Assembly: GCA_029851415.1 (NCBI GenBank)
Contig: CM056742.1
Location: 100,670,976 to 100,734,975, forward strand
Length of the DNA stretch: 64,000 bases
Direction of reading: 5' to 3'
DNA from: Eretmocerus hayati
Lineage: Eukaryota > Arthropoda > Insecta > Hymenoptera > Aphelinidae
Shown here: piece after piece, positions 21,111-56,626 of the stretch
Position numbering within the stretch: position 1 is the first letter of the stretch
Layout of the letters: every line of letters begins with the position of its first letter
Translations under genes and position numbers: made by a program
Notes under the pieces: model-generated
Database searches by the model: none
Seen by the model: only the letters and a program-made list of their open reading frames with translations
Told to the model about the DNA's origin: nothing

Positions 21111-21199
21111 ATCAACGTCGATTCGTCCCGATTCAGTTAACTGTTTCAGAGCCCATTGAATCACATTTAACTAGCCCACGTTGATCTTATGCGTGACAT

Positions 21200-21273
21200 T
21201 AGCAGAATGGTCGAGTGGTCAACGTCGCTGTCCCGTAATCCAGAGGTCGCAGGTTGAAACCCCGTCAAAGGTA
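21200..21273 (+). pseudogene. tRNA-like sequence, box B mutated (copy 1)
   Basis: The sequence has a box A-like TGGTCGAGTGG and, at the usual distance, GGTTGAAACCCC in place of a canonical box B GGTTCRANYCC. The 5' and 3' ends do not pair as an acceptor stem, so it is unlikely to make a tRNA. Copy 2 at 52,790 retains an intact box B. It sits between the C array and block D. Confidence 0.5.
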
Positions 21274-28862: not shown

Positions 28863-28864
28863 TA

Positions 28865-29983: not shown

Positions 29984-31322
29984 TGATGGATTCCGTTTGA
30001 AAACGACACATGGAAAATAGTGATGTCTCGGATAGGTATCTCGTAGTTTTGACTCGATTCTGTGGTCCAAAATATGGAGTTTCTACCCACCGTGTGGTCC
30101 CAAAAAATTTCGGAGACGCCTGCGGAGCTATTTCTGTTTCGCTTTTTGATTCCACCGAAGCATAAAAATCATGATCTTTCGTCACTAAATTGAATATATC
30201 TCGAGCTTGGGTCAAGATAATGCAACGCGGTTTGCACCATTCGAAAGATCTTGAAAAATCCTATCGAAAATGACCTCAAAAATTTTCGTCCAGCTTTTTC
30301 AGGCCCTGATCAGAAAAAATCCAGAAAAATCAGGCAAACCTGATTATCTCAAACAGCCATTTTTTCAATTTCTCAAAAATATGATTTCTCATGAAAAATC
30401 GCACGATCTTTGCGATGGAACTAGTCCGAAGTTGTTTTTTCACGGTGATATGCATTTGTGGTCAATTTTCTGATTTTTCATCCTCCAACCAATCAGAAAA
30501 CAGATATTTCTGCGCATGCACGTGGTTTGCCAAATTTTTAAGTAGTTCCAATCGGAAGCTGAGGGGATTTTCATGGAGATGACCCCTGGCAAAAGTCAAT
30601 TCCATGTTCCCAGTCAGAAACTACGGCAACTTGATTGAAAAAGAAGAATGGCCAGAGCGAGATGACCTATCTATCGTGAACCAGAGAATTGACGCTTTCT
30701 CTTGCATCAATGCTGTCAGTTGTGTTAATGATCTCGATGTCTGAAGAATCGTGTATCTTCAGTTCCAGTCGATTAAATGGAGTTCTGCACTAGGTCATTT
30801 TGAAGGGAATTTCTTCAGCTTTTGATTGAAACTACTTAGAAAATCCGGCGAACCACGCGCATGCGCAGAAATCTCTGTTTTCTGATTGGTCGGAGAATAA
30901 ACCATCAGAAAATTGACCAAAAACGCATAACAATGAAATATCAACTTCGGGCTAATAAGAAATTAGTTTGCCTGATTTTTCCGGATTTTGCCTGATCAGG
31001 GCCAGAAAAAGCTGAAAAAGAATTTTCAAGGTCATTTTCGATAGGATTTTTTAAGATCTTTTGAATGGTGCGAACCGCGTTGCATCATCTTGAGCCAAAC
31101 TCGAGATATATTCAATTTAGTAGAATAAGATCATGATCTTGATGCTCCGGTAGAATCAAGAAGCGAGATAGAAATAGCTCCGCAGGCGTCTCCGAAATTT
31201 TTTTGGGATCTCCTGGTGGGTAGAAACTTCATATTTTGGTCGACAGAATCAAACTAAAACCACGAGAAACCGATCCGAGACATCACTATTTTTCATCTGT
31301 CGTTTTTACATGGAATCTATGA
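29984..31322. mobile_element. 1.3-kb foldback element nested in left arm
   Basis: About 390 bp at each side are inverted repeats: TGATGGATTCC near 29,985 pairs with GGAATCTATGA near 31,312, and CTCCGCAGGCGTCTCCGAAA near 31,179 pairs with its inverse near 30,110. Insertion splits the tandem unit of the host arm between TGGTAT and TTCCTGACCTCC. No transposase is seen. The frames at 30,270-30,582 are not recognised. Confidence 0.65.
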
Positions 31323-31894
31323 TTCCTGACCTCCTGAGAGCTACCGACATCTCACAAGGATCATCTCTAACGTAATAATTGTATGCTGGATTCAAGTTCA
31401 TTGTTAATCACCAGAAAATTCACCAGAGCAGCTCGTTCATGAGTTTCGAGGAGAAGATGCAATCTTCCACCTGGAAGTCCCCATGTTACCCCAATTCTCG
31501 ACCTCCTAAGTCCTAGAGCCGTCTCAACAATCTCCTTTTCAACATGAAATTGTACTCTAGGTGCAAATCTATTATCAGTTGACCCTCGAAGAGGCCAACA
31601 GATTAGCTCATCAATGTCATCTCACGCGAAAATGGAACTTCCCGTATTGAAACTACAAAATTGTTACTGTCCGTAGACAACTGACAGCAACGGGTGGCTT
31701 GAGGCGACCACTTGAGGTTGAAGATATTCAAGTTGATCCGAATACTTGCCCATCATCCATCATGAACGTGACCTGATCAAATCATTTTCCGAAAAGTAAA
31801 ATTCTGTACCGAACCATTTCCCACTCATTCTCGGCATCGGAATATTTTCCACAGTGAGAAACTAATACAGATGTGATCGCTGAGGACCTAGATA
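31323..31894 (+). repeat. Inner part of left arm of the 8.7-kb element
   Basis: It continues the arm's tandem units (CGACCTCCTAAG at 31,500) and then a non-tandem part whose inverse occurs near 35,440-35,560 (TACTGTCCGTAGACAACTGA against TCAGTTGTCTGCGGACAGT). Nothing coding is recognised. Confidence 0.55.
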
Positions 31895-34213: not shown

Positions 34214-34737
34214 CGCAATCCTCAGTGCAATCTTCAGTGATAGATATCCAAGCACACCGCCACGCCCCATTTACTTTCCCCGATCTGATGCGTCTTGATG
34301 CGTCGACGATGAAGGGCCATTGTTGCAAATACGTGGGTCTATTGTAGATTCACCTTCATGAAATAAACTCTAACAGAAGATTCAAATTCAACCGTATTAG
34401 TCGCCAATCGATATTCTTACTTGTTACTCGATACAACAAATAGTCCTTGATGAATAAAAGCGATGAACACAGTTGACTATGTCTCAATCTCATCAGTTAC
34501 GTGGTGATCTGCCCTGGTAAAAATATTTGACTCTAAATTCGACTCGAATATTAGACTCAAGTATTAGACTCAGGATTTGGGTCCTTTTTCGAGTCAAATA
34601 TTAGAGTCAATTTTTTGGGGAATTAAAGGAACCGACTCAGCCTTATTAATAACTTTTCTCGATATTTTTGAGCCATTATATGGACGGAAAATGAATGGAA
34701 AAAATAAAAAAAAAAGTTCAATCATGACATATCGGGT

Positions 34738-34806
34738 GCCGACATCGGGATTTGAACTGACAACCTTTCGATTCAAAGTCCAACTCTCTACGTCCGTAGC
34801 CAGCGA
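34738..34806 (-). pseudogene. tRNA-like segment in left arm
   Basis: This is the inverted counterpart of 35,030-35,101. On the minus strand it has GGACTTTGAATCGAAAG in the anticodon-arm position and CAGTTCAAATCC as box B. No acceptor stem is visible. Confidence 0.45.
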
Positions 34807-35029
34807 GACGAGATAACCTAATTGACGTAAAAGGCTTACTTCAAATGTGGGCAGCCGTATGGAGAATATAGCGTTATTCCGAATGGGTCACTCACTGTGA
34901 AACATTTCAACAAACATTTCAACAGTACATGTATTATCGTGAAATGAGCGAATGAGTAGCAGGATGCTATATTCTCCATACGGTGACTTGCAGTTCAAGT
35001 ACGCCTTTTAGGCCATTATCCGTATCTCG

Positions 35030-35101
35030 TCTCGCTAGCCACGGACGTAGAGTGTTGGACTTCGGACCGAAAGTTTGTGAGTTCGAATCCCGGTATCGGC
35101 A
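35030..35101 (+). pseudogene. tRNA-Arg-like segment in right arm
   Basis: A box A-like TAGCCACGG is followed by GTTGGACTTCGGACCGAA, which resembles the anticodon arm of tRNA-Arg(TCG), and by box B GAGTTCGAATCC. The ends do not pair as an acceptor stem. Likely a tRNA fragment captured by the element, or a SINE head. Confidence 0.5.
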
Positions 35102-35585
35102 CCCGAAATTCCAATGTTAGTTTTTTTTCCTTTTTTCCAATCATTTTTCGGCCATATAATGGATTAGGAATATCGAGAAAAGTTATTAATAAGGCTGAGT
35201 GGCTTATTTTAATTCCCCAAAAAATGACTCTAATATTCGACTCGAATATCCGACTCGAATAAAGGACCCAAATCCTGAGTCTAATACTTGAGTCTAATAT
35301 TCGAGTCGAATTTAGAGTCAAATATTTTTACCAGGGTGTATTTGCTAGAAAATTATTCACCTCAGATTTTGGGTTATAAGTTACCCACAAAGAAGCAAGT
35401 CCTTGAAGTTTACTTCTTCAACTGAAGATGGTCAAGAAAGAAATTGCCACCCGTTACTGTCAGTTGTCTGCGGACAGTGCCTATTTTGTAGTTCCAATAC
35501 GGGAAATTCCATTTTTGCGTGAGAGGACATTGATTAGCATATCTGGTCGCCTCGAGAGGAAACTGATAATAGATTTGAATCTATA

Positions 35586-36646
35586 GGGGAGAGCGGGGTA
35601 TGTCGGGCATAGCTAATTAAAACCCGCTTGGCAACTACGATTTTTACTTTAATCGGATCTGCGAGTGCGCATTCGAAAGAGAAACATCTCAGGAATGATG
35701 GAATATTTTTTTAAAAATTTTTTCACTCGCACATTTTCATAGAAATGCTATTTTCTAAACCTCAATCATTGGGGCACGATGGGCAATCGCGGGGTATAGC
35801 GGACAGTCGTGTAGGGTATGATGGACACTCACGATTTTCAAGTAAAATGATAACACTACACATACAGAATTGTTGTCATTAGCATATTTGAACATTTTTC
35901 CACCTAATCTGATGCCTCAGGTCTATGACATGCCGTATTATGTTGGTAAAACTCGATTATTCAACAAAAAGATGTCACAGCTCGGATCTCACTCGCTCGC
36001 ACACACGAGTTTATGATGCATGGCACGAATCTGGTGGTCATATTATGTGATACAGCTTCTAATCCACCACCCACAGCATTGATAGCACTCACTTTTTACT
36101 CACATCGAGGTGAAATTATCAATAATATCGATAAACAATCACATCCGTGGTGCAGCTGGAGCAGAATATCAACAACACGAGGCGACGCGGAGGTTAGGTT
36201 AGGGGTGGCGCCACGCAGCTCGTGTGCTGAGGCTGTATGTTGGAACTGGTCAACGCGCCCCGCTTTTCGTGTCCATTATACCCCGTTCCATTCATCTTCG
36301 TATTACTATTATTGCTCAAAAACTACTCATCGGATCACTTCGATTCAAATTGGAGATTGAAGCTAACGAACAGAGCTACCGATGAGAGATGGGTAGCCAA
36401 GTATTTTCGATCGAATTGGCGCACGAACGGTAGAGTGCATACAGGCGTGACAAGCGATATTTTACCTCGAATTTCGACCTACGCTTTTGAAGGGTCAAAA
36501 CATATTGAAATTTTTTGTAACTCTCCAGGGAAAAACTAGGTGATACACTGATGCGAATTCATGAACATTTGGGTTTTTAAATATTTTTTTGTATTTCATA
36601 ACTGGGATGCCGAAATTTTCGAGCTGCCCACCATACCCCGCTCTCC
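35586..36646. mobile_element. 1.06-kb MITE with GGGGAGAGCGGGGTA termini
   Basis: Ends GGGGAGAGCGGGGTATG and the inverse TACCCCGCTCTCC. Near the left end GGGGTATNNCGGACA and GGGCACGATGGGCA repeat as subterminal motifs. It splits the right arm of the 8.7-kb element, whose left counterpart near 31,560 is continuous there. The frames at 36,013-36,360 and 36,237-36,539 resemble no protein I know. Confidence 0.65.
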
Positions 36647-36649
36647 TCT

Positions 36650-37601
36650 AGTACAATGTCATGTTGGAAAAGAGATGGCTGAGACGACTCTAACACTTAG
36701 GGGGCCGAGAATTGCGGTAACATGAGGATTTCTAGGCGAAAAAATGCATTTTCTCCTCGAAAATCATCAACTCGCTGCTGTAGTAATTTTTCTAGACTTG
36801 AATTAACAATGAATTTGAATCCAGAATACACTTATTACTTGAGAGATGATCCTTATGAGATGTCGGTAGCTCTCAAGAGGTCAGAAATATCAGTAAGGTA
36901 GGGTCTTATGCGCGGGAAAATCCGTTCTTTCCTCGAAAATCATCAATTAGCTAGTCTGGAGACTCTTCTAAGAGCAAAATAACAACGAATGTCGATTGAG
37001 CGTACAATTTCACGTGATAGATGTTTGTTGTAAGATATCCGTAGCTTTCAGATGGTATAATGGGAGCTTTTCTGCGTGAAAAACACTTCTCACTCCTCAA
37101 AAAACTTTAATCAGCTAGTCTGGTGACTCCCCTAGGTTAAAATTAACAACCAATTCAAATCTTGCATACAATTTCGCGTGGAACATGATCAATGCGAAAC
37201 CCCCCTAGCTCTCAGGAGGTCGGAAACAACAAAAATGAGGGCGTTTTCGCGTGGAGAAGTCCATTTTCTCCTTGAAAAGCATCAAATAACTAGTCTGGTG
37301 ACTCGTTTAGGGTAAAACTAACAATGAACTAGAATTCAACATGAAATTTTACGTCGGAAACAGCACCTTTGATGCCGTTTAGACTCGTATTGAGATGTTG
37401 GTGGGCAATAGCTACGAGTGTCCGAGCACCTCAAAGAAGCTATGCTGGACTATCCATATGGAAAAGCCCCTGACTCTAGAGGCACGGTTCAAAGGTCGAT
37501 TTTTGCACCGGTCGCGGTTGGGATATCATTTTTTGGTGATAACAAGACGATCTAGGGGGCGACCTAAGCCTTGCGTCCAACTTGAGAAATAACGGACACC
37601 C
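36650..37601 (-). repeat. Right inverted arm of the 8.7-kb element
   Basis: Reverse complement of the left arm, including the 160-180 bp units (CTAGTCTGGWGACTC at about 36,951, 37,118 and 37,291) and the terminal 240 bp, which match 28,865-29,100 almost perfectly. The 65-codon frame at 37,395 mirrors the one at 28,874. Confidence 0.7.
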
Positions 37602-37603
37602 TA

Positions 37604-38486: not shown

Positions 38487-40242
38487 CAAAGCGACCTACG
38501 GAAAGGGGTCATCTCTCAGATTCTTTTTTAACCTTTTTCATTCGATTCTATGGCCCAAAATAGGAACTTCGGACCACCTATGGGGTCCAAAAAAAATTTC
38601 TCCTCTCCATTGCACGCATATCCGTCAACAGACCGAAAATTTATCGTGTAAAAATCGATGCTCTTTTATTCACGAAAATGGGAATATTTAGAGTTTTTGG
38701 ATAGCTATCGATTTGCGGGTTGCGGCATCTGAAAGGGCATCAAAAAACCTATCGGAAACGTTGTCGAAAATTCCTTTTCTGTGATTGGGGGGCCTCCTGG
38801 AGGCAAAAGAGTGTTTTTCACTAAAATGTTGATTTCTCAAAAAGCCATTTTTTTTATTTTTTTAAAATTACATATTTGACGTAAAATTTTGCGTTCTTTC
38901 GAAAAAAATGAGTTTCAGAGAAGTTTGGGGCGATCCAAGTGACTTATGAGCCATTTTTTGAAAATTCGATTTTCCCGGTTTCAGAAATAGGCGATTTTCT
39001 GCGCATGCGCACAAACGTAGACTTTCGGCACCACTTTCAATGGAAAGCTGACAAAATTTCCTATAAAATGACTACCCGCAAAGTTGAAATTCATGCACTG
39101 AAACGCGATCTGCAAGGATTAATTATGTCGAATCAAAATCACATGAAAATTCAGCCCATTAACGCCTTCGTGGCGCCTGCTGAGATGACACATTCACGAG
39201 ATCTTCTCGGGACTCAATTTTGAGTACGAAATTGACCTGAAAAAAATTCGGACCACATGGTTTCAACGTAAAATTGTATGAACTTTCAAAATATGCGATG
39301 AAAACCCCCGTTCGAGGTGAACCCGAGGTGCTACATCCAATTTTTTGCCAGAAAATACGATATTTCACATTCAAAATTGCGAAAAATTGAATGTAGCACC
39401 TCGGGTTCGCCTCAAACGGGGTTTTTCATCGCATATTTTGAAAGTTCATACAATTTTACGTTGAAACCATGTGGTCCGAATTTTTTTCAGGTCAATTTCG
39501 TACTCAAAATCAAGTCCCGATAAGATCTCGTGAATGTGTCATCTCAGCAGGCGCCACGAAGGCGTTAATGGGCTGAATTTTCATGTGATTTTGATTCGAC
39601 ATAATTAATCCTTGCAGATCCCGTTTCAAAGCATGAATTTCAACTTTGCGGGTAGTCATTTTATAGGAAATTTTGTCAGCTTTCCATTGGAAGTGGCGCC
39701 GAAAGTCTACGTTTGTGCGCATGCGCAGAAAATCGCCTTTTTCTGAAATCGGAAAAATCGAATTTTCAAAAAATGGCTCATAAGTCACTTGGATCGCCCC
39801 AAACTTCTCTGAAACCCATTTTTTTCGAAAGAACGCAAAATTTTACGTCAAAAATTTGAGTTTAAAAAAATAAAAAAAATGGCTTTTTGAGAAATCAACA
39901 TTTTAGTGAAAAACACTCTTTTGCCTCCAGGAGGCCCCCCAATCACAGGAAAGGAATTTTCGACAACGTTTCCGATAGGTTTTTTGATGCCCTTTCAGAT
40001 GCCGCAATCCGCAAATCGATAGCTATCCAAAAACTCGAAATATTCCCATTTTCGTGAATAAAAGTGCATAGATTTTTACACGATAAATTTTCGGTCTGTT
40101 GACGGATATGCGTGCAATGGAGAGGAGAAATTTTTTTTGGGCCCCATAGGTGGTCCGAAGTTCCTATTTTGAGCCATAGAATCGAATGAAAAAGGTTAAA
40201 AAAGAATCTGAGAGATGACCCCTTTCCGTAGGTCGCTTTGGC
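38487..40242. mobile_element. 1.76-kb near-perfect palindrome
   Basis: GCCAAAGCGACCTACGG at the left end is mirrored at the right end. The arms of about 870 bp match with only scattered differences right up to a short loop near 39,365. Flanks AATTCCAC and AATTACAA agree at 6 of 8 positions, a possible decayed 8-bp duplication. The mirrored frames at 38,939-39,223 (+) and 39,510-39,788 (-) encode nearly the same 92-94 residues. They have no recognised motif and I do not treat them as genes. Confidence 0.75.
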
Positions 40243-40515
40243 AATTACAAATCAACGTCTTACAGATACATCACTCACATTACAGCTAAGGTTTCAATAC
40301 AATCCAATACTTATTCTAATCATGATCGCATTAACATATCATCGCATTACATAACTAAACGCTATTTGGAGTTTCTGTCACTCATCAGTCTTTTACAGGA
40401 ACAGGAGAGATGGTTCGTCGCTTGCGAGAAAGCAATCCCATGATATTTGGATGCAAACTCAGATGGTCATCGAAACGCCACCTAGCGTCAGCCATTCGAA
40501 TTCATCGGCCTCAAT
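40243..40515. other. Unassigned 270-bp segment between palindrome and A2
   Basis: Non-repetitive within the window, not A2-like, no gene seen. It may be part of the giant element absent from copy 1's visible portion, or sequence brought in with the palindrome. Confidence 0.35.
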
Positions 40516-41533
40516 CGATTCCAATACTAACTTTCAGGAATGGGAATTTCGATATCTCACACGACGTCAATCGCTCCCAATACTGACTATGAGCATTGAC
40601 GAGTTCATTCATCGTCCTTGATCGATTTGAATGCTGAATAACAGTATTGAGGACTTGAAATCCTATCTGTCCCAGTCGATTCCAGTACTGTTGTCTAGTA
40701 TCGGGAACATCGAGATCTCAACCCACTTTGATCGATCTCAATACTGACTGTGAGCATTGGAGTCTTATATCCTAATAACCTGAATCGATTTCAGCACTGT
40801 CTCTCAGTATTGGGTAGATCGCTATCTCAATCCACTTCAATCGATCTCAATACTGAAAGTAAGCATTAGAAACCTTATATCCTATCTACTTGAATCGATT
40901 TTCAGCATTGCAGACTTCATATCGTATTCATCTGAAGTGGATTGAATGCTGAATATCAGTATCAAGGACTTGAGATTCTATCTTCCCCAATCGATTCTAG
41001 TACTGTTTTCCAGTATCGGGAACATTGAGTTCTCAATAAGCTTCAATCGATCTCAATACTTACTTCTAGCATTGCAGACCTCATATCATATTTACCTGAA
41101 TCGGATTGAATGCTGAATATCAGTATTCAGGACTTGAGATCTTATCTGCCCCAATCAATTCTAATACTGTATACCAGTATTGGAAACCCCGAGATCTCAA
41201 TCCGCTTCAATCGATCTCAATACTGTCTTTCAGCATTGCAGACCTTATAACCCATTCGCCTGAATCGATGAGAATGCTGTGTATCAGATTGGGGATGGGA
41301 AGTCCTATCTGCCTCAATAGATGAAGATACTGACCTCTAACATTGGAGACAATATATTCTATCTACATCAATATACCTGAATGATGATTGTTAGTATTGA
41401 GGACTTGAAATCCTATCTGCCCCGATCGATTCCAGTACCGTCTCCCAGTATCGGAAACATCGAGATCTCAATCCACCCCAGTCGATTTCAATACTGATTT
41501 TCAGCATTGCAGACCTTATAACCCATTCACCTG
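40516..41533 (+). repeat. A2 array, second part
   Basis: Subunits of 55-60 bp as at 1-677, many matching closely in the same order (for example TATCCTAATAACCTGAATCG at about 40,758 and 186). It changes to A1 at ACCAATAGCAAAACTCATC. Confidence 0.8.
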
Positions 41534-42286
41534 ACCAATAGCAAAACTCATCTACAGGCCGTTCCAATTCTGCCCAGCAGTATTCAATTTGATTCAAATA
41601 TATATATGAGATCAGGATGAGTTCAATACTGATTTTGAGTATTGAGAGGGATAGAATAACCCTGCACTCACGATTTCAATTCGATTCTGTAGTATTCATC
41701 TCGATTAGTCAATGACGCAAAGAGTGATTGGTTCATCATTGGCATAGATTGATGCAGTCAATTCAATGCTGCCTGGCATGATTCAGACCGATAGCGAATC
41801 TTATCCTCAGGCCTTATCAATCCCGCTCAGCAGTATTGAATTCGATTCAAATATATGAAACCTAGAGGAGTTCAATACTGGTGTGAGTATTGAGGATGAT
41901 AGAATGACCATGCACCCACGATTCCTATCCGATTCTGTAGTATCCATCTCGATCGGTCAATCACGCAATGAGTGATTGGGTCATCATTGGAATCGATTGA
42001 CGGAGCCAATGAATGCTGCCCGGCAGGATTCAGATCGATAGCGAAACTTATCCTCAGAGCGTACCAATCCTGCTTAGTAGTATTGAATCCGATTAGAATA
42101 CATGGAATTCAGAGGAGTTGAATACCGATTGTAAGTATCGAGAAGGAGAGAGACCATGCTTCCACAATTTGAATTCCATCCTATAGTATTCATCTCGATT
42201 GGTCAATAACGCAACGAGTGATTGGTTTATCTTTGAAATCGATCCACACCGTCACTTCAATGCTGCCTGGCAGGATTCAGACCGAT

Positions 42287-43273
42287 TGGCTATGGGACAT
42301 GTGAGTTTCAGCGCCTCCGAGCGGCGGAAAACGGCATTCCACGGGAGGTAACATTCGAAGTTTTTGAACGTGTTCAGTGCGGGCTTTGGTTTTCTTATGC
42401 AAGTAGCTCAAAAACCGTAGCTCGGATGTAGCAACAGTATGCGAGGTGATTGTAGGGTTTTCGAAAACGAAGAGTTTGAGCGCTTGTGGGTCTGAATCCG
42501 AGCACAATTGCGTAAACTAGAGCGAGTTGAAAATTTTGCCTAACGCTTTTTGCATGGGGCTATGCGGTCACCGCCCAAGCTACTGATTCTGCCCCGACTC
42601 GCTCCGATATTTTTCTCGCTTCAGGCTCTGTGAATCCCTCAATAATGGTCTGATTGACATGTGTGATAGCTCAAAATTTCCGCAATTAAAAATCTAACAA
42701 CTTTCTCGCTTACTGTTACGAGGTTTGAGCAATAGGTTCTCTCAAAAATGAAGGAAAACCCGTACCACGCGCCTAATTTGCATGCTCTATTTCTGACCTT
42801 AATTTTTGGGAAAACCGTTGCTCAAACCTCATAAGAGTACACGAAAAAGTTGTTAGATTTTTAATTGCGAAAATTTTGAGCTATCATACATGCCAATCAG
42901 ACCATTATTAAAGGATTCACGAAGCCCGGAGCGAGAAAAATATCGGAGCGAGTCGAGGCAGAAGCGGTGGTTGAGCAGTGGCCGCAACGCTCGTGCTCGC
43001 GCCCATGCAAAAAGCAATAGGCAAAATTTTCAACTCGCTCTAGTTTACTCAATTCAGCTCGGATTCAGACCCACAGGCGCTCAAACTCTTCGTTTTCGAA
43101 AACCCTACAATCGCCTCGCATACTGTTGCCACATCCGAGCTACGGTTTTTGAGCTACTTGCATGAGAAGACCAAAGCCCGCACTAAGCACGTTCAAAAAC
43201 TTCTAATGTTACCTCCCGTGGAATGCCGTTCTCCGCCGCTCGGAGGCGCTGAAACTCACATGTCCCATAGCCA
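42287..43273. mobile_element. 987-bp foldback with TGGCTATGGGACATGTGAG ends
   Basis: The arms pair nearly along their whole length around a centre at 42,780. AT lies on each side. The uninterrupted A1 monomer reads ACCGATAGC, so insertion either duplicated AT or left no duplication. Frames at 42,277-42,507 and 42,890-43,165 are mirror shadows. Family unknown. Confidence 0.7.
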
Positions 43274-44634
43274 ATAGCAGAACTCATCTTCAGGCCGTTC
43301 CAATCCTGCTCAGCAGTATCGAATTTGATTGACATATATGAAATCTAGAGGAGTTGAATACTGATTGTGAGTATTGAGAGGGATAGAATAAATATGCGAC
43401 CGCGATTCCAATCCGATTCTGTAGTATTCACCTCGATTGGTCAATCACGCAATGAGTGATTGGGTCATCATTGGAATCGATTGACGGAGTCGGCTTAATG
43501 CTGCCTGGCAGGATTCAGACCGATATCAAAACTCATCTTCAGGCCGTTCCAATCCTGCTCAGCAGTATTAAATTCGATTGAAATATCCGAAACCTAGAGG
43601 AGTGCAATACTGATTGTGAGTATTGAGGAGGATCGAATGATCATGCACCCACGATTCCAATCCGATTCTGTAGTATTCATCTCGATTGGTCAATCACGCA
43701 ATAAGTGATTGGGTCATCATTGGAATCGATTGACGGAGTCGGCTTAATGCTGCCTGGCAGGATTCAGACCGATATCAAAACTCATTCTCAGGCCGTTCCA
43801 ATCCTGCTCAGCAGTATCAAATTCGATTGAAATATCCGAAACCTAGAGGAGTTCAATACCGATTGTGAGTATTGAGGAGGATCGAATGATCATGCACCCA
43901 CGATTCCAATCCGATCCTGTAGTATTCATCTCGATTGGACAATCACGCAATGAGTGATTGGGTCATCATCGGAATCGATTGACGGAGTCGGCTCAATGCT
44001 GCCTGGCAGGATTCAGACCGATATCAAAACTCATCTTCAGGCCGTTCCAATCCTGCTCAGCAGTATCAAATTCGATTGAAATATCCGAAACCTAGAGGAG
44101 TTCAATACCGATCGTGGGTATTGAGGAGGATAGAATGACCATGCACCCACGATTCCAATCCGATTCTGTAGTATTCATCTCGATTGGTCAATCACGCAAT
44201 GAGTGATTGGGTCAACATTAGAATCGATTGACGGAGTCGGCTTAATGCTGCCCATAGACGTAGAAGTATAGACTGCTGGTCCCGTATCTTCGGCGTTGAC
44301 ATCGAGCCCTGTGAGTGCGAGAGAGAAAACATGCTCTAAGAGGAAGATTCTCGGTCTCTCTCTCGCCGCGCCTGATTGGTTGGCGCCTCTCCCCGCCGCT
44401 CGCTCCGGCAAGCGCAAGCGAGCGAGCAGCCCGTTCAATCTGCTGACTCTTCGGCTCAAAAATTATCGATAATTTGTAATAAAAGATCTGTAGACTGCCA
44501 CAACCGTCGAACATTCGATTATCTTTATAATGCCCGATTAAAACTTATTATCCGCCCACTCCTTGAGTATAACCCAAACCCCTACAGGGGGCAGCAACTC
44601 AAGTGTAAGTATTAGGGATTCAATTTCCGAATAG

Positions 44635-44720
44635 TCGGTAGCTGTGCAAGGTAAAGCGCGTGACAGAGCTTTTTGTCGTCCGCGGAAAGCAGCAAAGGTT
44701 CAAATCCCGGCGATGTCAGG
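44635..44720 (+). pseudogene. tRNA-like segment in left inverted repeat
   Basis: TAGCTGTGCAAGG resembles box A and GGTTCAAATCC is a canonical box B. The spacing of about 50 bp would fit a tRNA with a long variable arm. The ends do not pair well. An inverted copy is at 45,681-45,769. Confidence 0.45.
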
Positions 44721-45680
44721 TTTTTTTTCTTTTATTTTGCAACTTAGGTAGCGATTGTTATTGTTTGAATTCTAACTAATTGAGACCCGTGGCGAATGAA
44801 TGATTTGCAAGCAGAATACTCTGCACAATTCTATATCTTTTTTCATCAGATCATGAGTGTTAACGGATCTGCGTATTACATGGGGTGCTTTTCCTTATCG
44901 AATTTATTTCTCCTTTCGAAAACTAAACGTGTGATGAACGACGTTTACGTGGGCAGTTTTGGCGCATACTTCTGTAGAGTTTGCATCTAAACAGAGTTTC
45001 AGCTGAAAAGTGCGAGGTCTGCCAGCTTTGAGTTGGAGTAATAATGAAGTCAAGTATATACTTCTGAATTTGTTCTACTTATGTGTCTTTTGAGAAATAC
45101 GGATCAAACTGACCACGCGGAGGCATAATGTCAAATTATGCTCGGCAGAATATGTTCGAAATATCGGACAAAGGTGATAAATCGATTTTTGATGATTATT
45201 TCACCTTGTCTGCTTGAATGCAGAATGCAACTGGTGAACTTGGCCTTCTTTGTGGATGCATCGGCGCCCCATCTCTGTTACCCTTATGATAACATTCCCG
45301 GCCGTGACTTTTGCGAAACCATTGTAACTCGCAACTCAACATTAGTAACGAGGACTTTTCTATGATAGACATTGCAGATTATTGGTACTAATCACCTCAT
45401 TTCACTGCAATAGTAACACAATGAGATGAGCTATATGAATATGCATCAGTTATTCAAAAATCTTTGAATAACAAATTCATTCTTCTAAAAGCGACAACAG
45501 TAGCAATAATGAAAAATAATTTACAACATTGTTGATAACAATATTGACGATCATAATAATGAAAATTAATAATAGTTAATGTGAAGTATTGAGTCAGATT
45601 GTATGCCATTAATTCACCACGAGTCTCAATTAGCTAGAATTCAAACAATAAACAATCGCTACCTAAGTTGCAAAGAAAAA

Positions 45681-45769
45681 CCTGACGTTGCCGGGATTGG
45701 AACCCTTGCTGCTTTCCGCGGCGCAACAAAAAGCTCTGCCATGCGCTTTATCTTGCACGGCTACCGACT
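45681..45769 (-). pseudogene. tRNA-like segment in right inverted repeat
   Basis: Inverted counterpart of 44,635-44,720. On the minus strand box B reads GGTTCCAATCC. Same interpretation. Confidence 0.4.
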
Positions 45770-47100
45770 ATTCGAAAATTGAATGCCTAATACTTACACT
45801 TAAGTTGCTGCCCCTTTAGGGGTTTGGGTTATACTCAAGGAGTGGGCGGATAATTAGTTTTAATTGGGCATTATAAAGATAACTGGATATTCGACGGTTG
45901 TGGCGATCTACAGATTTTTTATTACAAATCATCGATAATTTTTGAGCCGAAGAGTCAGCAGATTGAACGGGCTGCTCGCTCGCTTGCGCTCGCCGGAGCA
46001 AGCGGCGGGGAGAGGCACCGACCATTCAAGCGCGGCGAGAGAGAGAGAGAGACCGAGAATCTTCCTCTTAGAGCATGTTTTCTCTCTCGCACTCACAGGG
46101 CTCGATGTCAACGCCGGAGATACGGGACCAGCAGTCTATACTTCTACGTCTATGATGCTGCCTGGCAGGATCCAGACCGATATCAAAACTCATCTTCAGG
46201 CCGTTCCAAACCTGCTCAGCATCATTGAATCCGATTGGAATATCCGAAACCTAGAGGAGTTCAATACTGATTGTGAGTATTGAGGAGGATAGAGACCATG
46301 CTTCCACGATTTGAATTCCATCCTGTCGTATTCAGCTCGATTGGTCAATGACGCGACGAGTGATTGGGTTATCATTGGAATAGATTCACACCGTCAATTC
46401 AATACCACCTGGCAGGATTCACACTGATACCAAAACTTATCTTCAGGCCGTTCTAATCCTGCTCAGCAGTATTGAATTCGATTGAATATATGAAACCTAG
46501 AGGAGTTGAATACTGATATCGAGTATTGAGAAGGATAGATTAACCATGCACCCGCCATCCCAATCCGATTCTGTAGTATTCATTTCGAACGGTCAATCAC
46601 GCAATGAGTGATTGGGTCATCATTGAAATCGATTGACGCAGTCGACTCAATGCTGCCCGGCAGGATTCAGACCGATAGCGAAACTCATCCTCAGAGCGTA
46701 CCAATCCTGCTCAGCAGTATTGAATTCGATTGAAATACATGGAATTCAGAGGAGTTCAATACCGATTGTAAGTATTGAGGAGGATAGAGACCATGCTTCC
46801 ACGATTCGAATTCCATCCTATAGTATTCAGTTCGATTGGTCAATGACGCAACGAGTGATTGGGTTATCATTGAAATAGATTCACACCATCAATTCAATGC
46901 CGCCTGGCAGGATTCAGACTGATAGTAAAACTCATCTTTAGGCCGGTCCAATCCTGCTCAGCAGTATTGAATTAGATTGCAATATATGAAATCTAGAGGA
47001 GTTGAATACTGATTGGGAGTATTGAGCGGGATAGAGTAACCATGCACACACGATTTCAATTCGCTTCTCTAGTATTCATCTCGATTGGTCAATCACGCAA

Positions 47101-47595
47101 TCCCTGCTAGAAACAGTTCATTGGAAACAATTGAAATCCTATCGGATTGAATTGGATCGGACGGGATCCTATCGCTCCAATAGATCGATGCGATTGGGCC
47201 AATGGTACATCCAATCAGAATGAAGCGGACTCTATTTCAAAGTATCTCGAACTGTCCCCAATATGACGCAGAGATATTGGATGAATAATGTTCTAAAGGT
47301 TTTAATGCGATGTGTGGCTGTTGGAATCTTTCAAGTAATGTATGACAATGATAGGGATTCACCAATCCTACTCAATTCGAGATGATTCAATTAGATTCAG
47401 AGACGATCCAATGCTACTCAAAAAAGGCATCGACGGTAATGTTTTCCAATGCGAAATCGTCTATTGATTCAATCGAGGGACCCTCGCGAACAACATTGAT
47501 GCCATGATTGCCTAATCGTTTCTGAAGATGAAGAATGACATTTGACCATCCAATCATGATCAACGGACATGGATCAAATTCAATCCAATATAGTT
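47101..47595 (+). repeat. Left terminus and L block
   Basis: Terminal inverted repeat followed by non-tandem sequence; from about 47,198 it matches 6,145-6,560. The first roughly 95 bp are absent in copy 1. Confidence 0.7.
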
Positions 47596-49145
47596 TAATT
47601 GGCTCCAATCGCTGACTAATTTACTTCTCAATGTCATCTAATGATACTTATGGCTATTCATCGCTCGGGATACGAATAAGTAAAGACAAAACAATGCCGC
47701 TATTGGAGAATCGTTTCCAAGGGCGGGAAGGTAATTGAGGAGGTGTTGACCGGATACTGACCCATTGCATCCATTTCTGCAATAGTATTCCATCGACATG
47801 AGTCAAATTCGTCCTAATATAACTCAATCGGTTTCAATCGTCGACTAATTGACGTCTCAATGTAATTTAATGATACCTACGGCTATTCATCGCTCGGGGG
47901 TACGAATAAGTATAGGCAGAACAATGCCGCTATTGGGGAATCGTTCCCAAGGGCGGGGAGGTAATTAAGGTGTTATGACCGGATACTGACTTATTGCATT
48001 CTTTTCTGCAATAGTATTCAATCGACATGAGTCAAATTCGTCCTAATATACTTCAATGGGTTTCAATCGTCGACTGATTTACTTCTCAATGTCATTTCAT
48101 GATACCTACGACTATTCATCATTCGGGATCCGAATAAGTGAGGACAAAACAATGCCACCATTGAAGAATCGTTCCCAAGGGTGGAAAGGTTATTAAGAAG
48201 CTGTTGACCGTATACTGGCCTATTGCGTTCACTTCTGCAATAGTATTCAATTGACATGAGTCAAATTCGTCCTAATATACTTCAATGGGTTCCAATCGTC
48301 GACTGATTTAATTCTCAATGTAATTTAATGATACCTACGACTATTCATTGCTCGGGATCCGAATAAGTATGACAAAACAATGCCGCTATTGAAGAATCGT
48401 TCCCAAGGGTGGAAAGGTTATTTGGAGGTGTTGACCGGATACTGACCTATTGCATTCATTTTTGCAATAGTATTCAATCGACATGAGTCAAATATGTCCT
48501 AATATACCTCAATCGGTTTCAATCGTCGACTAATTTACTTCTCAATGTCATTTAATGATACCTACGGCTATTCATCGCTCGGGATACGAAAAAGTATAGA
48601 CAAAACAATGCCGCTATTGGGGAATCGTTCCCAAGAGCGGGGAGGTGATTAAGGTGTTATGACCGGACTCTGACTTATTGCATTTGTTTCCGCAATAGTA
48701 TTCAATCGACATGAGTCGAATCCGTCCTAATATACCTCAATCGGTTTCAATCGTCGACTAATTTACTTCTCAATGTCATTGAATGAACTCTACGGCTATT
48801 CATCGCCCAGGATACGATGAGTATAGTTACAACAATGCCGCTATTGGGGAATCGTTCCCAAGGGCGGGAAGGTAATTAAGGTGTTGACCGGATACTGACC
48901 ACTTGCATCCATTTCTCCAATCGACATGAGTCAAATTCGTCCCAATATACTTCAATTGATTTCAATCGCTGACTAATTTACTTCTCGATGTGATTCAATG
49001 ATACCTACGACTATTCATCGCTCGGGATACGAATAAGTATAGACAAAACAATGCCGCTATTGGGGAATCGTTCAAAAGAGCGGGGAGGTAATTCAGGTGT
49101 TGACCGGATACTGACTCATTGCGTTTGTTTCTGCAATAGTTCTCA
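47596..49145 (+). repeat. B array, about 7 monomers
   Basis: The marker CAATGCCGCTATTG or a variant lies at about 47,693, 47,922, 48,150, 48,376, 48,607, 48,833 and 49,050. Monomers match those at 6,560-15,190; the one at 48,063-48,257 is nearly identical to 9,976-10,170. Confidence 0.85.
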
Positions 49146-51090
49146 ATCGATATGAGTCAAGTTTGCACCAATCGACTTCAATCGGTTCCAATGCCTGACT
49201 AGGTGACTCTTCAATGTCCATCAATGGTACGTACGGCCATTCATGGCACCATCTTTAGGCTATGAACTAAACGACGCCGCTACTGGTCAATCGTCCCCAA
49301 GGGTATTCATTATATTAGACTGTGCTGACGTGTACTGACTCGATCATGTTCATTTTTCCAATAATATTTAATCGACATAGATCAAATTCGCACCCATCGA
49401 CTTCAATCGGTTCCAATGACTGACTAGGTGACTCTTCAATGTCGATCAATGGTACGCACGGCCATACATGGCACCATCTTTAGGCTACGAACTAAACGAC
49501 GCCGCTATCGGTCATTCGTCCCCAAGGGTATTCATTATATTAGACAGTACTGACGAGTACTGACCTGATCACGTTCATTTTTCCAATAATATTCAATCGA
49601 CATGGATCAAATTCGTACCCATCGACTTCAATCGGTTCCAATGACTGACTAGGTGACTCTTCAATGTCGTTCAATGGCATGTACGGCCATTCATGACGCT
49701 GATCAGACATGGCTATGAGCCGCTATTGGTCAATCGTTCCCAAGGGTGTTCATGATATTAAACAGTATTCGACGCTTGTCGACCTGATTGCGTCCATTTT
49801 CCCAATAATATTCAATCGACATGAAACAAAATCAATCCAATTGACTTCAATCGGCGTTGATTGCTGACTAGTTCACTCTTCAATGCCATTGAATGGTACA
49901 CACGGCTTTCTATGTCTCTGATTACGAATGGTTATCGATGATACGATGTCGCTATTGGTCGATCGTTTCTAAGAGTGCTGATGATATTAGACAGTACTTG
50001 ACGGGTACTGACCCGTCGCGTTCATCTTCCCAATAATATTTAATCGACATAAATCGAAATCGTTCCAATCGACTCCAATCGGCGTCAATCGCTGACTAGT
50101 TCACTTTCTTCGGGGAACACCCACATAGCCGATTGAATGATATTAAGGTGTGGTCGAGTTGGAAATTGGAAGATATTGAAGTGTTCGGATTCGATTCATG
50201 TTTTTTGACGATGGTTCATCGGATCAACTCTATTAGGTTGACTTCTGTTGCATAAAGACTATAAAGTTGCATGATTACCCGTAGAGGCGGTAAATGATAC
50301 TCGAAAGTGAGCAAGTTGTCGATTGAAGCCATTCGAATCGAATAAACCGAATTTGACTCATGACAATTGGATAGAAATGTGATTGGTTGAGTGCAATTAA
50401 GCTCATACCCGTTACACACAGTCTGATATCACTTCTTACCATTGGGAGCAATTTGCCAATGGTGCCATTATTGCATTCTCCACATTCAGTAATGCAAGAG
50501 ATAAATGATCGTGTAGGAGATTTGATAATACTAAGGTGTAAACAAATTGGCGACTAGAACTGATTGAAGGCGATCGAGGGCGATTGGGCCGAACTTGGTT
50601 TACGTCGATTGGATATTATTGGTCACATTAAATCATTTGGATTGATTTTCATTGTACGAAGGTTAATGTTACTATTGACAGCTGAGAACGATGGGCCGGT
50701 AGTGGCATCATTCTGTTCGCGGTAATTTGTGAATCAAGTGTTGAAGAAGCGGTATGGATGGTTGGATAATATTAAGGAAAGTCGATTGGTATATCTTCCA
50801 CTTGTTCCGAATATAGTTGAATGCAATCACATAACTTCACGTCGCACACAGTACAGTGTCATTTCTTCCCTTTGGAAGCGGTTGGCCAATATAGCGCCAC
50901 CATGCAGTTTGCGACATTTGGTTATACACGAAGTGAATAGTCGCGCAGGCGATTGAATAATATTGGAGAGCGAGTGACTTGGGGATTGAAACCAATTGAA
51001 GTCGATTAAACCGGAGTTGGTTCATATCAATTTGATATGATTGGTCGTATGAACTCCTTGATTCACATCATTGCATAGAGTCCAAAGTCA
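49146..51090. repeat. Diverged centre with strand switch
   Basis: Matches 15,190-16,980, including the B-to-C orientation change at about 50,110 (ACTTTCTTCGGGGAACACCC), with one or two monomers more than copy 1. Frames of 67-75 codons are repeat sequence. Confidence 0.65.
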
Positions 51091-51099
51091 CTTTTCACC

Positions 51100-52690
51100 A
51101 TTGGAGGCGATTGGCCATTACCACCATCATTCTGTTCCCGTCATCAAGTAATGCAAGAAACAAATAGTCGTATAGGCGATTGAATGATATTGCGGAGTAA
51201 GCGACTTGGGGATTATTTAGATTGATTCCTATTGCATGAATTTCATTGTCACTTTTGACTATTGGGATCGATTTGCCAATAGTGGTTCGATTCTGTTCGT
51301 GACATTTCGAATTTCAGGAAGTGGACAGCCTCATAGGCGATTGGATAATATGGTGAGAGTCTTATCAGCGATTGAAACCGATCGAGCTCGATTGAATTGA
51401 ACATGTACTATGTCGATCGGATATGATTTGCCATCATATGCACTTATATGGCTCAATTTCAGTTGCATGAATTACAATGTCATTTTCCACCATTGGAAGC
51501 GATTGGCCAATACCCCCATCATTCCGTTCGCATCATCGAGCAATGCAAGAGATGAATAGCCGTTGAGGTGATTGAATAATATTGAGGGGTGAGCGAGTTG
51601 GCAATGGAAACCGATTGAAGTCGATTCAAATGGGATTGGTTCCCGCAATTGATTACGATTGATCGGATGAACTCATTCAGATTGATTCCTACTGTATTGA
51701 GTTCAATGTCACGTATGACCATTGGAAGCAATTAGCCAATAAACCAACATCATTCTGTTAGCAACTTTCGGTAATGCATGAAATGAATAGTCAAGCAGGC
51801 GATTGAATAAGATTGAAAAGTGAGTGAGTTTGCGATTGAAACCGACTAAAGTCGATTGAAACGTATTTGTTTTATGTCGATTGAATATGATTGGTCGTTT
51901 CAACATATTTGGATGGATTGGCATCACATAAACTTCAATGTCGCGTTTGACCATTGGAAGCGATTGGCCAATACCCCCATCATTCCGTTTGCATCATGGA
52001 GTAGTGCAAGAGATGCATAGCCGTTTAGGTGATTGAATAATATTGAGGGGTGAGCGGGTTGGCGATTGAAACCGATTGAAACCGATTGAAGTCGATTCAA
52101 ACGAGATTGGTTCTCGCAATTGATTACGATTGATCGGACGAACTCATTCAGATTAATTCCTACTGTATTAGGTTCAATGTCACGTTCGACCGTTGGAAGC
52201 AATTGGCCAATAAATCAACATCATCCTGTTAGCAACATTCGGTAATGCATGGAATGAATAGTGAAGCAGGCGATTCAATGATATTGAGGAGTGAGCGAGT
52301 TTGCGATTGAAACCGACTAAAGTGGATTGAAACGTATTCGTTTTATGTCGATTGAATATGATTGGTCATTTCAACATATTTGGATGGATCGGCATCACAT
52401 AAACTTCAATGTCGCGTTTGACCATTGGAAGCGATTGGCCAAAAATTCATTTCTTCCGCGACACTTCGTATTGCAAGAGATGAATAGCAGTGTAGGCAAT
52501 CGAATCATATTGCGGAGTGAGCGGGTTGGCGATTGAAACCGATTGAAGTCGATTAAATTGAACATGGTTCATGTCAGATGAATATATTTTTGGGTTGTTT
52601 GCACCCTTGGAAGCGATCGACCAACAGAGAGATGATTCCGTTCGTGACATTCCGTGACGCAAGAGATGAATAGTCTCATGGGCGATCAAC
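51100..52690 (-). repeat. C array, about 7 monomers
   Basis: Monomers of about 214 bp like those at 16,980-21,110, but without the homogenised 854-bp periodicity. Minus-strand frames of 70-92 codons recur because monomers are stop-poor in one frame. Confidence 0.75.
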
Positions 52691-52789
52691 GTCGATTCGT
52701 CCCGATTCAGTTGACTGTTTCAGAGCCCATTGAATCACATTCAACTCGCCCACGTTGATCTTACGCGTGTTATCGCCCAACTCTGACAT

Positions 52790-52862
52790 TAGCAGAATGG
52801 TCGAGTGGTCAACGTCGCTGTCCCGTAATCCAGAGGTCGCAGGTTCAAACCCCGTCGAAGGT
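52790..52862 (+). pseudogene. tRNA-like sequence with intact box B (copy 2)
   Basis: TGGTCGAGTGG and GGTTCAAACCCC are good matches to RNA polymerase III boxes A and B at the usual distance, and a TTTTT tract lies downstream at about 52,879. The acceptor ends do not pair, so a functional tRNA is unlikely. It could still act as an internal Pol III promoter. Confidence 0.5.
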
Positions 52863-54301
52863 AAAAATTATTCATCGATTTTTTCATTAATTAATAAAAA
52901 TTGAATAATAACATTTCTATCAGAATAAATATCTCCATGAATATCCGATGATTAAAAACTATCTTGAAAAATTGATAAAGTATATAAACGAATAATGATC
53001 AATAAGATATATAACATGAATATGATCACCCGTAAGCATACTAACCGAAATAAAAATCAAAACCAAAGTACAGAAATTTTTTTTCTCGATTCAATAGAAC
53101 GTACGTTTTTAGATCCGATTCGATCCAATTGGATCTCACCGTAGATGAAAACCCATTGGGAAACATTCAACAGTTATTCACTAATAGAGCAACGGTTGGT
53201 TAGCTCCAATTGACTGACATTGATGTATCTGCGAGGGACCCGGCCGTATTTATTCGCAATTGAAGACGATTGGATTACCATTCACTAATCCCTGAATTCC
53301 TTTTAAGAACGATTGGTTCATATTTTACAACTGAAACCGATTGAGGAGGATTGAATACAATTAATTGAACTTCTCTTGTGCCATTGAAATACACTGAATC
53401 CCCAATCTAACGGTTGATCGAAACCAATTGAGAACCGTAGCGCAATTGTACTTGTGGCCACTCAAGGTAATTGGAGGAGTATTCAACAACTCCTAATTCC
53501 CGCTTGAGGCCGATTGATTCTCATAGCTATTTGTAGAGTCAATTGGCAAAATTAGATCCAATTGACTGAATCTCATACGCGCTTTCCAGGTCTATTGAAA
53601 TCTCTCTCTCTCAACTCATTGGTTAACTCACCTCCTATCGAATTCGATTGAGTGACATTGGATTCCATTGACCGCACTTGAACCTGGTCCGAGTAGATTG
53701 GCATCTTTCTCTCCCGAGAGATTGAAGCCAATTGAAAAATATTGGGGAATCCTTAGTCAATAGTGTAAGGGTCGATTGGCCCTATTGGAAGGTATCAAAT
53801 GACATTCACCAACTCCTAGATTTCTCTTGGGTCCGATTAAATCATATAGCTTCATTCGGAATCGATTGAGCGAAATTAGATCCAATTGATTGAACTTCAA
53901 ACATGCTTTTCAGATACATTGAAACTCCTCTCTCAATGCTTCGGAACCGATTGAGAATCACTAATCTCTCGAATGTGATTAATATCCAAATAACAGTTCC
54001 GTGGTTGAAGCGCATTGAAAGAGTATTCTTCAATCCCCAGAAGTCTATTCAAGCGCATTAATCAATATAGCAAGGAGCACGAAACATCACAAAGAAGCAT
54101 TCATCTCAATTGCAATGAAGCAATTGGAAGTACTTGGTTGAAGTAGGCCCTCCACCTTTCATTACTATCGAGCTCCATTCACGTTAGAAATTCATCAATG
54201 AACACCAAGGTCAAAGTTGCATTTCAGATATCTAATTGAAATCTCATTCAGGAGTATTGACTATAGAGCAATTGTTTCCAATAGAATATTTCTAGCAGGG
54301 A
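52863..54301 (+). repeat. Right non-tandem block D and terminus
   Basis: Matches 21,274-22,724 along its length with small differences. Ends CTAGCAGGGA. No convincing gene; the 63-codon minus-strand frame at 53,842 is not conserved in copy 1. Confidence 0.75.
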
Positions 54302-54917
54302 TAGGTGATTGGGGGATGATTGGAATCGATCCAGGGCTAATGACTTGAATCTCTCCATTCATGATTGAGACAGATAGGAATGAGCAAGGCTATTATACAC
54401 CAGTACTGCAGAGAATTATTTGGTTCGATTGAGGAATGTTGCAACAATAGTATTCAAAAGGTGAAATTCAATCCTGTCATTCGGGATTGGTTAGGATAGA
54501 TGATTAGTATCGTTTCGCGAATTGAATCAGTTTCTGAAGCACTGATCTCGATAGGGCAGTGGGAGACGGGATCTATCATTCGATTAGATTGATTCCAATA
54601 CTGTATTGGTTCATTCAAACATATTGAACGAGCAAAGATCTTTCATCCATCCATCCGGATCCTATCCTATGCTGAATACTAGTATTGGATTATATTCGCT
54701 CACATCAATCCTCATCAACAGTATAGAATTCGATTGGCAGTTTTGACCTCAAATCTACAATTCAGGATTCAGCCAGATTGGCTCTATGCTCGATTGATCT
54801 GCATTGAATCCCAATACTGCTCTCGCCGGTTGGATGATAGAACCGATTGAAATGTATTGATCCCGATAGGATTCGATTGGTTTCCAATCTATCCCAATCG
54901 ATCTTTTGCAGCAGGGA
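54302..54917 (+). repeat. E block and right terminus, copy 2
   Basis: Matches 26,906-27,513. It starts with TAGGTGATTGGGGGATGATTG, so the P-like MITE present here in copy 1 is absent. Ends CTTTTGCAGCAGGGA. Confidence 0.75.
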
Positions 54918-55315
54918 TCGGACGAGTACCATATGGTATCGTGCTGTTAGGGCATGGGATCGAGTGGAGTATCAATGTGATATCCCATTGTTTCGTCATA
55001 GTATCAGACAGGTATTCCATGATATCTCCTCGGTATCTCATAGAATCTTAAAAGTATCGTACAATATCTCATATGTATGTATGTCATGGGATCAGACTAG
55101 TATCGGATAGTATCTCATGATCGTAGCATAGAAACCATTGAATACCGTATGATATCTCAGTAGTATCGTGTAGGACTACGTGAATCGTAATAGTGTCGTT
55201 TCTCCATATAGTTTAGTTCCTGCGAGTGACTCCCATGGTATCTCATAGGTTCTCCTCGACTCACAGTCCGAATACTTGTGAGATATCGTGAGATATCATA
55301 CGATATCATGCTCAT
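54918..55315 (+). repeat. F repeat, right of giant element copy 2
   Basis: Aligns with 37,618-37,870 from its first bases (shared CCCATTGTTTCGTCATAGTA-type segment, GTATCAGACAGGTATTCC). It then degenerates into GTATCTCATAGG and GATATCGTGAGATATC units. This is the last repeat before the gene-bearing part of the window. Confidence 0.7.
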
Positions 55316-55478
55316 TCACAAATTCCATCTTCTGCCGAGTCCAAACCCGAGAATCGATGTTCCTGATGCAGCTCTCCATAATATCGATGATCAGCGCGAA
55401 CGAGCATTCGATTAGAAAGCGTTGAGAGTGCTCTGAGCACTGTGAGCGCTGTGAGCGACATAATCGAATAAACCTAAA

Positions 55479-55656
55479 AAGTTTCCGCGCTGTCGGCAGT
55501 CCGCGGTGGTCGCGAAAAAATACATCGGAAGTAATGGAAAGAGTGGGGGTAGGTCTGCCCGCGGCTTGCTCCAATGTCCGCGCATGCGCGCTCCACTCCC
55601 ATTGCTTCCCATGTATTTTTTCGCGGCCACCGCGGACTGCGGAAAGCGCGGAAACT
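55479..55656. repeat. GC-rich foldback of 178 bp
   Basis: GTTTCCGCGCTGTCGGCAGT at 55,480 pairs with the inverse ending at about 55,655 (CTGCGGAAAGCGCGGAAAC), and AAAAAATACATCGGAAG pairs with CTTCCCATGTATTTTTT. Likely a MITE. Minus-strand frames of 72-92 codons here are shadows. Confidence 0.6.
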
Positions 55657-55720
55657 TCTTGTTGAGGCGCTAACTCCAGCCCTGCTGATGAGTCCGATTG
55701 GGTAAGCCATCAGCTTAGGG

Positions 55721-55851
55721 TGCGATTACATGAGCAAGACGATTGGCGGGAACGCCCATACTAGCCGTGAGTGCGACAAAGAGGTTAGAGTGCTACATCC
55801 TTGTCGCACTCACGGCTAGTATAGGCCTTCCCGCCAACATGTAATCGCGGC
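55721..55851. repeat. 131-bp hairpin MITE
   Basis: GCGATTACATGAGC and GGCGGGAACGCCCATACTAG pair with CTAGTATAGGCCTTCCCGCC and ACATGTAATCGC. The inner stem CCGTGAGTGCGACAA is perfect. Confidence 0.65.
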
Positions 55852-56626
55852 CTTATTCCTACAAAGTCAAGCCTCCATTGGAGATCTCACTTGCACCAAT
55901 GTCGCACAGTTCAAAATCGAATTAATACAACCCGCGCGAATCGTAATTCGTTTCGGTGCCGACTATCCTAATGGCACTTTTTGGATAAGATGATTGAGTG
56001 AATTATCGGTTTATTCCATCATTTTCAACTGAATCGTACGATTCGTCATCAACCCATTATTTTCTGGATGTATGGGGTAATTTTGTATTCTTATATCAGT
56101 TAGGAAACAATTTCCGTTTGTTAGTAGCTTATATTATTCAGTGTGAATTCCCTGTTATGCTGAATATTCCAGTGGGAGAAGGAAATCACGACAATGTCAT
56201 TCAAACTGGGCCCTTGTCACAGATTCCACCCTATTCTTCAGTCATCCCAATATGAACCGGCCCATCATCTCATAATAATCTCTGTGATGATAATTCTGCT
56301 ATATGAATATACTATCTAAATTGTTCCATCCGTTGGCAATGCTGCTGCACATGTTGCTGTGAATTGAGTATCATTCCCAATCGTTGAATTAGCAGTTTCC
56401 TAGGATCTTGGAGTTCACAAAGTTCTCAAGTTCTATTATTTTGAGAGACTGCTAGCATTCTTTCTTCCCATAGGGTTGATCCTGACATTTGATGCATAAT
56501 CCCATATGTTCTGACCACATACCTCTGTTTTGAGGCACACTCCTTTGGATACTTATGGAACTCATTTGATGAAATTTTCCCATCATATGCAATTTAATTC
56601 TTTGTAAATCCTGTCAACCCTTCTAG
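55852..56626 (+). other. Upstream region of the kinesin gene
   Basis: About 775 bp without repeats. It probably holds the promoter and 5' untranslated sequence. Just before the start codon stands CCCTTCTAG, which could be a 3' splice site of an untranslated-leader intron. The TAG is also an in-frame stop right before the ATG, so no coding frame continues upstream without splicing. I cannot place the transcription start. The 85-codon frame at 55,998 is not recognised. Confidence 0.4.

Follow-up and report, generated by a model that had tools for sequence, protein, structure and literature searches.

Two foldback-like elements with inverted arrays of satellite-sized repeats in Eretmocerus hayati, probable copies of a transposon family that seeds satellite DNA

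Can a transposon carry the seed of a satellite DNA inside its own arms? The question is raised by a 64,000-nucleotide stretch of the genome of Eretmocerus hayati (assembly GCA_029851415.1, contig CM056742.1, positions 100,670,976 to 100,734,975), hereafter called the window, where a block of inverted tandem arrays at 47101-54301 lies within a second satellite, satellite A. The initial annotation had described this block as a giant foldback transposon. We refer to it as E2, and to a second, longer copy at 6145-22724 as E1; both this copy and the larger duplicated block to which the two belong had been overlooked. The analyses described below indicate that E1 and E2 are probably copies of a family of non-autonomous, foldback-like DNA transposons, whose internal repeats grow into satellite. 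E2 and its flanks are organised as follows.

46184-47100, plus strand: satellite A left of E2, by the nhmmer A profile
47101-54301, no strand assigned: E2, 7201 bp, both ends present
47101-47133, plus strand: left terminal inverted repeat (TIR), 33 bp
47134-47538, plus strand: left unique segment, with no clear homology to the right one
47539-50105, plus strand: B array, 11 full monomers of ~226 bp plus partial ones, by nhmmer B and C profiles and TRF
50106-50112, no strand assigned: B/C strand switch
50113-52745, minus strand: C array of diverged, inverted B-type monomers, with 13 full or partial C-profile matches, 11 of them at least 140 bp
52750-54268, plus strand: right unique segment, with an internal duplication (53481-53614 / 53804-53936) and no recognised coding
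54269-54301, minus strand: right TIR, 33 bp
54302-54914, plus strand: block X, homologous to 26904-27511 from 54306 on (92.4%)

The outermost 33 bases on each side of E2, which hold the paired ends TCCCTGCTAGAAA / TTTCTAGCAGGGA, are inverted copies of each other, with 29 of 33 positions identical in an ungapped alignment. They lie exactly at 47101 and 54301, as had been claimed. In a comparison of the left end with every minus-strand position of the window, the runner-up was the right end of E1 (28/33), and then came a match of 22/33. Random pairs of 60-base pieces scored as high as the E2 ends in 5 of 20000 cases drawn from the whole window, and in 4 of 20000 drawn from its repeat-rich parts.

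E2 breaks the 247-bp satellite A, which then resumes in phase. On the left flank satellite A ends at consensus position 177, and on the right flank the A-like start of block X corresponds to position 178, a value that depends on a three-base extrapolation from a weak 26-base match; right of E1, satellite A resumes at position 180. Uninterrupted counterparts of the insertion site exist in other A monomers, so the recognisable empty site proposed earlier is borne out. Since the orientation of A is the same left of E2 and right of E1, the arrangement is that of an insertion and not of an inversion. The flanks of E2 read CGCAAT and ATAGG, and the element ends begin TCCCTG or CCCTG within CGCAA|TGAGTG. 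The A consensus around the insertion point (CAATCACGCAATGAGTGATTGGG) is a short palindrome, and the insertion point falls in its loop. That the palindrome determined the insertion point remains a guess, because several equally strong palindromes are found elsewhere in the A monomer.

Inside E2, the arrays agree with the earlier description of monomers of about 228 bp on one strand facing diverged homologues on the other. The 11 full B monomers lie on the plus strand at 47607-50082, and the switch, previously placed near 50,110, is confined to 50106-50112, as C-profile matches end at 50105 on the minus strand and begin at 50113 on the plus strand. With the B profile, C monomers are matched solely on the minus strand, the lowest E-value being 5e-18; the reciprocal comparison, C profile against B monomers, likewise gives minus-strand matches, the best at about 1e-28. 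Furthermore, the B consensus and the reverse C consensus are identical at 141 of 215 positions (66%), which is well above background (z 18 against 300 dinucleotide shuffles), whereas on the same strand the two score z 0.2. E2 combines inverted repeats at precise ends with tandem repeats on opposite strands. Neither the B nor the C profile matched the A arrays at E 0.001, and a common ancestry of A with B or C was unsupported (z 0.7-2.8).

The description of the inverted arms as satellite arrays is correct for the arrays themselves but not for their reach. The B/C arms stop short of the element ends. Outside them lie ~405 bp of left and ~1.5 kb of right sequence with no likeness to each other beyond 33 bp: an alignment of the two unique segments covers only 33-34 bp, with one additional weak nhmmer match at E 0.05. 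Because these segments do not align beyond the inverted repeat, E2 is not a foldback element in the strict sense, in which the arms reach the ends. The idea that B/C repeat the TIR motif to offer further binding sites for a transposase, in the manner of Galileo, found no support in eight alignments tested against 500 shuffles each (p 0.12-0.74). A tRNA-like sequence had also been reported beside one arm. This was not confirmed: ARAGORN finds no tRNA genes in the window and no tRNA family is among the 10 Rfam matches obtained at E up to 5 over 40000-56500.

The second copy is organised as follows.

683-6144, plus strand: satellite A left of E1, 247 bp, with nhmmer A-profile matches to 6132
6145-22724, no strand assigned: E1, ~16.6 kb, without the left 93 bp, which include the left TIR
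6489-15908, plus strand: B array, 41 full monomers, with a tandem duplication (7644-10378 / 10379-13113) at 99.3%
15916-21180, minus strand: C array, 24 matches of at least 140 bp, with an 855-bp higher-order repeat
22692-22724, minus strand: right TIR, directly followed by satellite A
22725-26691, plus strand: satellite A right of E1, its final monomer grading into block X without the element

E1 and E2 are collinear and 89-97% identical across the compared parts, namely 91.5% in the left unique segment (47219-47538 in E2), 91.7% in the first B monomer, 96.6% in the last three B monomers, 89.4% in the switch and early C, and 94.4% in the right unique segment. At their right ends the two copies are identical across the outer 13 bases. 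At the left junction the first 93 bases of E2 are missing, and satellite A runs into E1. The B/C inversion site is common to both copies, and the sub-arrays on its two sides have diverged to 66%.

E1 contains 41 full B monomers versus 11 in E2, and 24 C monomers of at least 140 bp versus 11. The tandem duplication in its B array comprises 12 monomers (2735 bp), and copies of the higher-order repeat in its C array are up to 100% alike. The best match of 33 of the 41 B monomers of E1 is another E1 monomer; the remaining eight, which best match an E2 monomer, sit at the array edges (the first two and the last six). From this pattern we infer that the array grew inside an element already in place. 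As the two copies lie next to each other with very unequal arrays, the step from transposon repeat to satellite is directly testable at this locus.

Several observations weigh against E1 and E2 being transposon copies with growing arrays. The case for mobility comes from two copies in one duplicated block, with neither a clear target-site duplication nor a transposase, and the left end is present in one copy only (E2). The duplication is at most 'AT' at E2, and none is clear at E1. A 7-10-bp duplication as in Tetris and Galileo was found at neither copy; this is a trait of those two families and not of all foldback elements. No stop-to-stop open reading frame (ORF) of at least 150 amino acids is present in E2. 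A Pfam scan of 10 of the 20 E2 ORFs of at least 60 amino acids gave four weak matches (E 0.012-0.21), all under the cut-off and none of them a transposase, and none was found among 15 ORFs scanned elsewhere in the window (10 of 37 plus 5 of 19 listed). Furthermore, the element ends are not entirely distinct from their surroundings. A-profile matches overrun two of the element boundaries, by 34 bases at the left end of E2 and by 67 at the right end of E1, and the inverted repeats are somewhat A-like: of 12 alignments of the TIR motif, the eight with B/C mentioned above and four with A (also 500 shuffles each), three gave p 0.006-0.022, uncorrected, all of them with A, the fourth A alignment giving 0.24. 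Partial self-inversion is seen in A (z 6.4) and in C (z 5.4); it does not explain the orientation of B relative to C, and for A it suggests construction from inverted subunits. Finally, the smaller arrays of E2 may partly reflect loss of monomers rather than growth in E1, because some E2 monomers best match interior E1 monomers. Of the earlier proposal that a transposon seeds satellite DNA, the foldback-like element with inverted satellite-sized arrays still fits best, and array growth can be seen in E1.

One alternative is a single old insertion, in which one element was copied together with the whole block (1-27.5 kb versus 40.6-54.9 kb), and later exchange of A monomers produced the differing right flanks. 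We give it slightly less than an even chance, and it is compatible with the transposon reading except for repeated movement. There is good support for the block duplication, which could explain both copies: between 1-27511 and 40588-54914 the left block, the start of the A array, the element and X are collinear, and the compared parts are 87-97% identical. As the only two copies known both lie within this block, with similar divergence (left unique segment 91.5%, right unique segment 94.4%, X 92.4%), both may stem from one insertion. The right flanks argue in the other direction. The right end is followed by an interior A monomer in E1 and by the A/X boundary monomer in E2, the A phase being nearly equal in the two. 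In both copies the element gives way to its neighbour (X in E2, A in E1) exactly at the final base of the inverted repeat; had A and X exchanged sequence, the breakpoint should rather lie within the ~30 bp common to them. In addition, the first unit of the duplication retains an A/X boundary monomer without the element at 26662-26693.

The main rival of the transposon reading, a purely satellite-based origin, appears unlikely. Under this explanation B/C would be an array with an orientation switch, mixed with A by satellite recombination, and the ends would be conserved transition zones instead of transposon termini. Such macro-dyads, kilobase-sized inverted sub-arrays of one satellite mingled with a second, with conserved inversion sites and transition zones, are described for Tribolium in the available text of PMC13081366, and they resemble B/C in the kilobase-sized inverted sub-arrays and in the mingling with another satellite. 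The failure to find a clear target-site duplication or a transposase fits this explanation, as do the partial self-inversion of A and the A-profile matches entering both element ends. It does not account for the precise 33-bp inverted ends, for the continuous A phase across the block, or for the segments of 0.4 and 1.5 kb outside B/C that separate the arrays from the ends. A B/C divergence to 66% is likewise unlike an inversion within one living satellite. According to the same text such symmetries are documented only in Tribolium, and that part of the paper does not describe for Tribolium the TIRs and precise insertion found in E2. Misassembly of arrays or joins is very improbable: long near-identical repeats (2735 bp at 99.3%) are hard to assemble, but assemblers usually separate copies differing by 3-11%, and the two elements diverge to that extent in both unique segments, the switch region and the last B monomers.

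If E1 and E2 are indeed copies of a foldback-like transposon, its design is that of two unique segments with inverted tandem arrays between them, B on one strand and the diverged C on the other, enclosed by short TIRs. Such an element would be moved by a transposase encoded elsewhere, and may insert, with no duplication or only 'AT', into the loop of the short A-monomer palindrome. In these repeat-rich and probably heterochromatic surroundings, unequal exchange would later have expanded the arrays within the element, which would act as a seed of satellite DNA, as Tetris does. A more specific version, which we regard as unlikely, is that the family targets satellite A through the palindrome loop, without duplication, while carrying the seed of B/C, and that E1 and E2 are separate insertions at the same monomer phase. 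If true, one satellite would be the landing site for the birth of another.

Searches for further occurrences were made with short patterns. The 23-base right-end pattern gave no match in viral or in bacterial and archaeal contig collections, and neither the 20-base B pattern nor the A pattern gave one in viral contigs; misses in such collections say little. Eight single cyanobacterial matches to the 20-base B pattern were set aside as chance or a conserved bacterial stretch, as the A, B and C profiles score nothing at E 0.01 in the eight loci. A text search of the literature for the 10-base end returned only unrelated titles among the matches listed.

Besides the flanks of E1 and E2, satellite A is present at 41540-42284 and 43276-44253, and 110-bp tandem repeats related to its reverse strand occur at 88-339 and 40676-40907. 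That this array does receive such elements, a point in favour of the transposon reading, is shown by three further inverted-repeat insertions within A or A/X sequence; the duplication is 8/8 at one of them and 7/8 at another. A foldback element at 44253-46154 in satellite A has 550-bp arms (90.5%), termini CATAGACGTAGAAG and the 8-bp duplication ATGCTGCC. At the A/X boundary, a 212-bp miniature inverted-repeat transposable element (26694-26905) has 56-bp arms, termini CATAGACATAGAAG and the duplication matching at 7 of 8 positions, and resembles an end of the former element (77% over 87 bp). The third, of ~990 bp (42285-43275), is a single end-to-end palindrome (87%) and lies in phase within satellite A with a duplication of at most 2 bp. 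A second TIR-like word at the end of block X, seen in unit 2 only (22/33), was dropped. Elsewhere in the window, 28863-37603 holds nested palindromic elements within 875-bp outer inverted arms (94%), including several inner self-palindromes of ~0.8-1.3 kb. A mir-988-like hairpin at 55756-55824 is unproven (32.7 bits versus a gathering score of 72). At ~56.6-58.4 kb there is a kinesin motor gene in three pieces (Pfam PF00225), followed at 61.96-63.66 kb by two retrotransposon-like ORFs with a zinc knuckle above the cut-off and protease matches below theirs.

Among known systems, the FB elements of Drosophila melanogaster have inverted arms of tandem repeats, with short units and arms of much higher similarity. 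FB elements are also mentioned in the available text of PMC4079207, where Tetris of Drosophila virilis and D. americana is described as a non-autonomous foldback-like element with ~220-bp tandem repeats in inverted arms. According to that text the array size differs among Tetris copies, and the internal repeats grew to kilobase-sized satellite arrays in beta-heterochromatin; its TIRs reach 1735 bp, its outer flanking domain (TIR-FD) reaches 866 bp, and its target-site duplications are of 8-10 bp. As far as this description allows, E1 and E2 resemble Tetris in being foldback-like, in their satellite-sized arm repeats and in the array size varying between copies. They differ from it in that the E2 ends share 33 bp only, the arms have diverged to 66%, an 8-10-bp duplication is lacking and the site lies inside another satellite; an outer flanking domain common to both ends, as in Tetris, was not found in E2. 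Galileo, a Drosophila element of the P superfamily, has long inverted repeats, and one D. mojavensis group holds ~210-bp tandem repeats in numbers unequal between the arms (PMC3573991, as available). The same source gives it 7-bp target-site duplications, TIRs of 18-1250 bp, transposase-bearing relatives and up to three repeats per arm, unlike the tens of repeats found here.

The possible duplication at E2 recalls the PHIS transposons, of which ISL2EU makes an 'AT' duplication and Spy none, according to the available part of PMC4482050. As given there, ISL2EU ends usually start with GG and its target is A|AT|T, and Spy prefers AAATTT. The ends of E2 and its site are unlike both, as detailed above, with neither GG ends nor an 'AT' duplication within A|AT|T as in ISL2EU, and the ORFs tested revealed no transposase of this kind.

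The combination of foldback arms with 210-220-bp repeats, for which novelty had been claimed, is already published for Tetris and Galileo, as their descriptions in these sources show, satellite seeding is published for Tetris, and the growth of internal arrays is a known route to satellites (review PMC12628747, as available). Unusual here are the large, diverged arms, the shortness of the sequence that the ends share, the missing clear duplication and the position inside another satellite. No paper describing that combination was found in a text search mainly of titles and abstract openings, with subscription journals largely outside it. If the ends recur genome-wide, the family would be a further case of the passage from foldback element to satellite, with arms larger than in the Drosophila papers compared.

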